Assembly: GCA_039680605.1 (NCBI GenBank)
Contig: JBDKTA010000049.1
Coordinates: 62,001 to 126,000 of the forward strand
Source: Planctomycetaceae bacterium
Lineage (GTDB): Bacteria; Planctomycetota; Phycisphaerae; SM23-33
Direction: 5' to 3'
DNA length: 64,000 nucleotides
Part shown: positions 14,040-44,844 of the stretch, in pieces
How positions within the stretch are numbered: position 1 is the stretch's first letter
Layout: each line of letters opens with the position of its first letter
Position numbers and translations under genes: made by a program
The notes under the pieces: generated by a model
The model's input: only the letters and a program-made list of their open reading frames with translations
Databases searched by the model: none
Told to the model about the DNA's origin: nothing

Positions 14040-14166
14040 AACCGGAAGATTGGAATGATGGAAGATTGGAATAACGGAATGATGGGGTGGCATGGCGACA
14101 CGCGAAGCGGGTCGCCATGGGTGCAACGAAAGATGGAAGAATGGAATACTGGAATGATGGAATGAT
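14040..14166. repeat. Purine-rich repeat tract (family H) interrupted by a family C palindrome
   Basis: Positions 14040-14084 and 14128-14166 consist of GGAATGATGGAAGATTGG-type words. Between them (14085-14121) is a clean family C hairpin, GGTGGCATGGCGACACGCGA...TCGCCATGG. The arrangement looks like insertion of one element into another. The rest of the gap up to 14259 shows no gene, only the ribosome binding site of the next ORF. Confidence 0.8.
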
Positions 14167-42818: not shown

Positions 42819-44054
42819 ATGTTCAGCTTTCAGGTAGATAAGACTGACGGCCGCGCGCGGGCGGGCGTGCTGGCTACGGATCATGGGCAGGTGTCCACGC
42901 CGGTGTTCATGGCGGTCGGGACGGCGGGCACGGTCAAGGGCGTCACGCCGGGGCAGCTTCGCGCGTGCGGGGTGCAGATGGTGCTGGGCAACACGTACCA
43001 CTTGCTGCTGCGGCCGGGGCCCGATACCGTGGCGGCGCTGGGGGGGCTTCATACGATGATGGCCTGGGACGGGCCGATCCTTACCGACAGCGGGGGGTAC
43101 CAGGTCTTCTCGCTGGCGCACCTGCGCAAGATCGACGACCAGTGCGTGACCTTTCGTTCTCACATCGACGGCTCGGAGGTCATGCTCACGCCGCGGCGGG
43201 CCATCGAGGTGCAGCAGGCCCTGGGCGCCGACATCATCATGCAGCTCGACGAGTGCGCCCCCGGCGAAGCCGCCCGCGAGCAGGTGACCGAGGCCGTCCG
43301 CCGCAGCGCCCTGTGGGCCCAGTTGTGCAAAGAGGCCTGGCTGGGTGGCATGGCGACACGCGAAGCGGGTCGCCATGGGGACGCCGCTGGAGGCGGAAGC
43401 GTGTGCAGCCAAACGCGCGGGGCAAGCTCCGCCGCTAAAACGGGGGGGCAGGCGTTGTTCGGCATTCAGCAGGGCGGGGTGCATCTGGACCTGCGGGCCG
43501 AGTCGGCCGCTCGCCTGGTCGAGCTGGACCTGCCCGGCTACGCCATCGGCGGGCTCAGCGTGGGCGAGGGTCACGAGCCGATGGTGGCTGTGCTGGAGGC
43601 GATCCACGAGCAGTTCCCCGCCGACCGCCCGCGGTACCTGATGGGCGTGGGCGAACCACGCGACATCCTGGCGGCGGTGCTGCGCGGGGTGGACATGTTC
43701 GACTGCGTCTTGCCCACCCGCAACGCCCGAAACGCCCAGGCCTTCACCTGGGGCGGCCGCATGCGGCTGCGGAACGCCCGCTACGCCAACGACCGCTCGC
43801 CCCTCGACGCCGCCTGCGACTGCTACACCTGCGCCAACTTCAGCCGCGGGACGATCCGCCACCTGTTCATGGCCGGCGAGATGCTCGGGCCGACGCTGAT
43901 GACGATTCACAACCTGCACTTTTTTTCGCAGTTCATGGCCGCCATCCGCGGCGCGATCGTCGAAGGGAACCTGGAACTGCGTGCGCGGCAGTGGCTGGCG
44001 GCGATGGAGGCGGGCAATGAGAGTTCGAAGTTCGAAGGTCGAAGTTCGAAGTGA
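42819..44054 (+). CDS. tgt: Queuine tRNA-ribosyltransferase (tRNA-guanine transglycosylase) with in-frame repeat insertion
   Basis: The product is 411 residues from ATG 42819 (MFSFQVDKTDGRARAG). It exchanges guanine-34 for preQ1/queuine in GUN-anticodon tRNAs. Key features: VGTAGTVKGVTP, Asp90 in LTDSGGYQVFSL, nucleophile Asp295 in DMFDCVLPTRNARNAQAF, and the zinc site Cys333/Cys335/Cys338 (CDCYTC) with a His near 364 (MTIHN). Between KEAW and GGQALFGIQQGG there are 34 extra codons (residues 175-208) derived from two palindromic repeats; normal enzymes have only about 8-12 residues in this surface loop. The last 11 residues (ESSKFEGRSSK) and the stop codon come from a third repeat word. All catalytic residues are intact, so it is expected to be active. 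yajC follows, the classical neighbour. Confidence 0.95.
   Translation: MFSFQVDKTDGRARAGVLATDHGQVSTPVFMAVGTAGTVKGVTPGQLRACGVQMVLGNTYHLLLRPGPDTVAALGGLHTMMAWDGPILTDSGGYQVFSLAHLRKIDDQCVTFRSHIDGSEVMLTPRRAIEVQQALGADIIMQLDECAPGEAAREQVTEAVRRSALWAQLCKEAWLGGMATREAGRHGDAAGGGSVCSQTRGASSAAKTGGQALFGIQQGGVHLDLRAESAARLVELDLPGYAIGGLSVGEGHEPMVAVLEAIHEQFPADRPRYLMGVGEPRDILAAVLRGVDMFDCVLPTRNARNAQAFTWGGRMRLRNARYANDRSPLDAACDCYTCANFSRGTIRHLFMAGEMLGPTLMTIHNLHFFSQFMAAIRGAIVEGNLELRARQWLAAMEAGNESSKFEGRSSK
43341..43442. repeat. 102-nt in-frame insertion in tgt made of family C and family D palindromes
   Basis: Positions 43343-43380 are a family C hairpin (GGTGGCATGGCGACACGCGA..TCGCCATGG), identical in its core to 14085-14121. 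Positions 43411-43440 are a family D unit (ACGCGCGGGGCAAGCTCCGC..), the complement of 17713-17740. A GGCGGAAGC spacer joins them. The length is a multiple of three with no stop in the tgt frame. Confidence 0.9.
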
Positions 44055-44104
44055 GAAGCGGCGAGCCAGAGTCGGTGCCCGTATCGCTTCGAACTTCGAA
44101 CTGT
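44021..44104. repeat. TTCGAAGTTCGAAGG inverted repeat (family L) spanning the tgt stop
   Basis: The left arm 44023-44051 repeats GTTCGAAGTTCGAAGG; the right arm 44088-44102 is CTTCGAACTTCGAACT. A related CTCGAAGGTCGAAGATCG follows at 44133-44150. It encodes the last codons of tgt and may form a terminator-like stem in the tgt-yajC gap. Confidence 0.8.
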
Positions 44105-44174
44105 TCTTATGCCCGGTTCTCTGGTACACTTCCTCGAAGGTCGAAGATCGACCGCGATAGAAAGGGACTACGAA

Positions 44175-44695: not shown

Positions 44696-44844
44696 AACCG
44701 AGGACGAGGACGAGGACGAAGTGTCACTCTGCGTCAGTCCCGCGCCCGTTCATGGCGACCCGCTTCGCGTGTCGCCATGCCACCCGGCGCATCCAACCAT
44801 CCAACCATCCATCCATCCATCCATCCATCCCGCCATTCCGCCAT
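44696..44844. repeat. Short tandem repeats and an inverted-orientation family C palindrome after yajC
   Basis: GAGGAC/GACGAG units at 44700-44720, a family C element at 44751-44785 (CATGGCGACCCGCTTCGCGTGTCGCCATG), and a CATC microsatellite at about 44795-44832 (nine or so near-perfect units). The kinase stop codon follows at 44845. Confidence 0.8.

Follow-up and report, generated by a model that had tools for sequence, protein, structure and literature searches.

Intragenic GTAG/CGTC REPs were described by Di Nocera et al. (2013; PMC3733652) in a number of species, among them Rickettsia and the PVC-group member Opitutus terrae. More than half of these intragenic REPs occurred as dimers or groups, encoding 20–30 residues, and the recB genes of two Xanthomonas species carried different REPs at about one site (PMC3733652). 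REPs with a GTGG head were listed for Pseudomonas (PMC2817692), and GTGG variants have been tested (PMC8266576). The tgt gene described here, from a probably planctomycete genome, encloses two palindromes in its frame, and because intragenic REPs were already published (PMC3733652), the finding is a rich new case of a known phenomenon. A previous sequence-only reading of this DNA had regarded such a case as new to it for this kind of genome; the PVC member O. terrae is on record (PMC3733652), and many further cases were found in the present genome. The in-frame repeats are a genome-wide habit of the published sort and not an isolated case.

The window, which is the whole 64-kb stretch of DNA analysed, contained the single-copy tgt gene (queuine/guanine tRNA-ribosyltransferase) at 42819–44054 on the + strand. 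Its frame ran from the ATG at 42819 to the TGA at 44054 without an internal stop and encoded 411 residues. The product matched the Pfam TGT domain PF01702 with an E value of 5.4e-147, and searches of Pfam and the PDB with this product gave no match other than Tgt. The first palindrome (family C; 43343–43379, + strand; GGGTGGCATGGCGACACGCGAAGCGGGTCGCCATGGG) had a GTGG head and encoded GGMATREAGRHG. It was followed by a spacer (43380–43410, + strand) encoding about DAAGGGSVCSQ and by the second palindrome (family D; about 43411–43441, + strand; AAACGCGCGGGGCAAGCTCCGCCGCTAAAAC, reverse complement GTTAGCGGCGGGGCTTGCCCCGCGCGTT, head GTTAG), which encoded about TRGASSAAKT and was read in the frame that avoids the TAA of D. 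The peptide of the insert region included the GGMATREAGRHGD stretch, and the loop peptide contained HGDAAGGGSVCSQTR. Alignment of copies gave sharp edges for both units, with lengths of 37 nt for C and about 28–31 nt for D. The sequence-only reading had placed a C hairpin and a D unit, in frame and free of stops, at residues 175–208 of Tgt; the numbering was correct, and the open frame and the matches of both units elsewhere bore out the rest. The 3' codons and stop of tgt were located within a GTTCGAA-type repeat (AGTTCGAAGTTCGAAGG; window 44017–44105), with an inverted copy just downstream and similar runs elsewhere in the genome.

Both units were dispersed palindromes, in agreement with the earlier description. 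In the window, the 31-base core of C had four matches at up to three mismatches and the D core had two, with an expectation of 0.00 in each case. When the genome (a 5.23-Mb draft of 72 contigs) was searched, the C core was found at 64 places at up to two mismatches (control 0), the C half-site at 161 places (control 0), and the D core at 162 places (control 1). The window copies of C at 14085–14121 (+ strand) and at 44747–44785 (− strand, intergenic, downstream of a yajC-like gene) had 31-base cores identical to that of the tgt copy. Several C copies were opposite an inverted C-like partner, and D formed inverted pairs at contig positions C21:53771/53818 and C43:56283/56329. The relatives search covered 59 further genomes and matched the C half-site a single time, with one mismatch. 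Since C was present at high copy and was essentially private to this genome, its insertion is recent on this branch.

The Tgt segment after QLDEC through IQQG was 73 residues long, compared with 49 residues in ten relatives. Relatives without inserts had segments of 41–51 residues. The long segment was absent from 24 of 26 relatives, the other two carrying different palindromes, and this was the alignment that the sequence-only reading had proposed as a check; conservation in distant Tgts, which it had named as contrary evidence, was seen in none of 42 such proteins from many phyla. On the segment lengths, the 42 distant Tgts without the segment, and the single half-site match in 59 genomes, the insertion into tgt is, as judged by sequence comparison, real and recent. 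The net gain relative to the commonest loop of the family was about 24 residues, or about 72 nt, in agreement with 39 + 33 nt. The insertion had been given as 102 nt; a segment of that size was indeed located, but it includes a spacer of about 30 nt of uncertain origin. Two origins were considered for the spacer, namely, the original loop of Tgt and a sequence brought along between C and D. Because the net gain was about 72 nt (73 against 49 residues), the segment lengths favour the former, and DAAGGGSVCSQ may be the original loop. As a proven ancestral loop it was dropped, with a shuffle test against the loop of the relatives giving p = 0.41.

The same measurements bear on the possibility that C and D arrived as one composite unit of about 96–102 nt in a shorter original loop. 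C followed by D in like orientation, over about 85 nt, was found at two more places (G000 C21:73410 and C54:5924, G000 being the present genome), the segments of relatives were as short as 41 residues, and the spacer had no measurable likeness to their loop, as a composite unit would allow. However, the spacers at the two other places differed in length and sequence, removal of all 102 nt would leave 39 residues, below every relative, and the closest palindrome-free relatives were at 49–51 residues. A composite arrival is thus possible but rather unlikely, and the insertion of two palindromes into an existing loop is the reading followed here.

Palindromes were also present in this loop in related genera. 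The Tgt loop of the closest relative (G015) contained a different REP pair of E-type (GTGGCACAG-type), and this pair recurred about 40 times elsewhere in G015 and many times in the present genome. In G001, the loop was nine residues longer and contained a palindrome, with a similar degenerate copy pair elsewhere in the same genome (E = 7e-5 for one copy), which is probably a third palindrome in the Tgt loop of a third genus. Thus, 3 of the 27 Tgts compared (this one and those of G015 and G001) had palindromes in the loop, from different families. Apart from tgt, a sample of G015 (L296–L314) contained a C-like family with the GGGTGGCATGG head as in C and another stem (GGGTGGCATGGTCACGCTGTTCGCGTGACCATG), which suggests, from sequence, a head common to diverging REP families. 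The G015 and G001 assemblies, being separate, also argue against the joining of repeat-bearing reads inside tgt by misassembly. The 72-contig draft and the repeats, which are known assembly traps, give some ground for such an artefact, but the flanks formed one continuous Tgt in one frame around an insert of about 100 nt, and of all the explanations weighed this one is the least credible.

The insert-bearing protein retained the Tgt domain, the catalytic Asp, and the zinc ligands, and comparison with other Tgts revealed that the invariant residues were conserved, among them those of the Asp, Cys, and His motifs. The AlphaFold2 model had a mean pLDDT of 89.5, with residues 190–205 below 50, and its core was best matched in the PDB to the Zymomonas mobilis TGT (1ozm and others) with an rmsd of 1.4 and 47% identity. 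The insert was positioned in the loop joining a long helix to the strand leading into LFGIQQG. An intact catalytic core had been claimed before, with modelling against the Z. mobilis enzyme as a check, and both the retained motifs and the low-confidence loop on a matching core agreed with it. The best named Tgt matches had only ~50–55% identity and included several Planctomycetota and Phycisphaerales records, which points to a planctomycete as the probable source. QueA was encoded in the same genome, and since tgt was single copy and QueA was present, the queuosine pathway is likely in use.

Palindromes in this loop in three genera might be taken to mean that the insert peptide was recruited for Tgt function, for example, for tRNA contact or dimerisation. 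Against this, the three loop peptides were unrelated, and the C core was identical to the intergenic copies, so that codon selection on C was not visible. Helix-to-strand loops of a barrel are usually on the opposite side from the active site, and in the model the residues with pLDDT below 50 were placed on such a loop. Recruitment is therefore very unlikely, and the peptide is better regarded as a tolerated addition.

Many parallel cases were observed in the genome. The survey sample, composed of 797 kb of genome stretches and the 64-kb window (861 kb, about a sixth of the genome), contained 257 copies of ten repeat families. Coding DNA made up 87% of the sample, yet only 66 of these copies fell within called genes, indicating that genes were strongly avoided by the repeats. 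Of 35 clusters with coding DNA of the same strand on both sides, 21 were in frame and open, 6 were in phase with a stop, and 8 were frame-shifted; by a simple home-made coding score, 27 of 35 were in phase against an expectation of one third (p = 1.4e-7). G015, sampled over 380 kb, had six clusters in frame and two shifted. Pfam domains spanned or flanked inserts in KsgA-, GH95-, NuoN-, PFL-, ADH-, ABC-, LarA-, and UvrD-like proteins. Families free of stops in all frames had 64 of 181 copies in genes, compared with 2 of 76 for the stop-bearing families D, D2, and F, a comparison with some circularity, since gene calling was itself based on open frames. D was rarer in genes than its stop alone explains.

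Individual sites in the survey were varied. A pyruvate formate-lyase-like gene (L188:15712–17922, + strand) held a C unit read in the frame used in tgt (GGMATRAAGRHG), and a KsgA-like rRNA methylase gene (L162:10815–11837, − strand) had one loop with four REP units from three families. F-type palindromes (TATGGAGTGCGGCAGCCTTAGCTGCCGCTTT) with a GGAG head occurred at several places in window 6241–28162 as inverted pairs and were almost never in genes. An E pair at 2492–2543 in the window was considered as a frame-shifted gene insertion and was rejected, as it reads as ordinary intergenic sequence.

The phase counts also bear on whether the insert is translated at all. If it were bypassed by the ribosome or cut from the RNA, its coding properties would be irrelevant, and the C hairpin, which formed in the predicted RNA fold of the tgt region and was stable there, would be compatible with such skipping. 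The frame kept in 27 of the 35 coding-flanked clusters would then be needless, stop-bearing families were scarce in genes, and the 112-nt insert stretch folded no better than many shuffled sequences (z = −1.49). Skipping is highly improbable on these grounds, and translation of the insert as part of Tgt is preferred.

The genome had 15 Y1_Tnp matches (RAYT-type). Its REP-like families numbered at least eight, and some of them had GTAG or GTGG heads as known from the literature. Two RAYT genes were bordered by their own REPs, one by I and the other by K/J/H. The former gene (L071, contig C39) had inverted I-repeat pairs (GGGTGCCACGCACAACTCCGTTGTGCGTG) on both sides, as in a typical REP-transposase unit. 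An etfB-like gene (L070:844–2478, − strand; contig C4, about 18.8–20.4 kb) formed a single 544-codon open frame that took in a complete RAYT-type transposase together with the K, J, and H repeats surrounding it; a second, intact etfAB pair was located on contig C50. This frame directly links RAYT units to in-frame landing in genes. None of the 15 Y1_Tnp hits, from a search of about 95% of the genome, was closely flanked by C or D, and a C- or D-specific RAYT as mobiliser was dropped for want of a candidate in that portion; C and D are therefore termed REP-like and not full REP members. C and D were short (20–40 nt) imperfect palindromes at high copy (64 and 162 places, respectively), and both formed inverted pairs of the BIME/REPIN kind. 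The GTGG head of C is a variant listed for Pseudomonas REPs, and the GTTAG head of D is near GTAG but not identical. The tgt insert also had the in-frame placement in a conserved protein, absent in relatives, that characterises Rickettsia palindromic elements (RPEs). Since the genome was rich in RAYT-type transposases, C and D are best read, from their sequences, as REP-like palindromes rather than RPEs. The parallel drawn earlier with RPEs holds for the mode of action, whereas for the family REP with RAYT-type transposases fits better.

Taken together, the insert most likely consists of two non-autonomous REP-like palindromes, probably spread by RAYT, in a tolerant surface loop of Tgt, where translation would add about 24 residues that are probably disordered (probability of roughly 85%). 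In this mechanism, RAYT (TnpA-REP, HUH/Y1) transposase activity would spread C and D, which would land in the tolerant loop between the long helix and the LFGIQQG strand. With no stop and the frame kept, the insert would be translated as about 24 added residues, and the Tgt with its disordered loop should still work. In-frame mobile palindromes in conserved enzymes were common in this uncultured, probably planctomycete lineage; scaling up from the sample gives roughly 130 such sites in each genome. A wider proposal, that the RAYT/REP units of the lineage routinely colonise reading frames in frame and repeatedly in the same loops, with even a transposase riding inside etfB, so that REP mobility is a standing source of peptide segments and fusion proteins, is speculative and rather unlikely. 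The single Tgt loop with different palindromes in each genus allows the possible usefulness of such peptides, as opposed to mere tolerance, to be addressed directly. For annotation, odd peptides in such proteins, for example, EHGRDAHAT or VAQAFQPV, are probably translated repeats.

When compared with known systems, the Tgt shared its fold with the Z. mobilis enzyme (1ozm and others), in which the loop at chain residues 189–196 has no insert. As in RPEs, palindromes were in frame in conserved proteins and tolerated as added peptide, a likeness in the mode of insertion; unlike the RPE case, the phylum is different and the genome also has RAYT-type transposases. C and D shared with REP/RAYT systems and REPINs (PMC2817692, PMC3116915, PMC8266576) an imperfect hairpin, high copy, inverted pairs, and HUH transposases in the genome, with a head that is a documented variant (GTGG) for C and close to GTAG for D, but had no transposase gene flanked by their own palindrome in about 95% of the genome. 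The intragenic REPs (PMC3733652) also occur as in-frame units or dimers in conserved genes, with different REPs near one site. In contrast to those, the C and E families here were GTGG-headed, the Tgt loop was occupied by a different family in each of several genera, numerous genes were hit, and a whole transposase unit was in frame in etfB.
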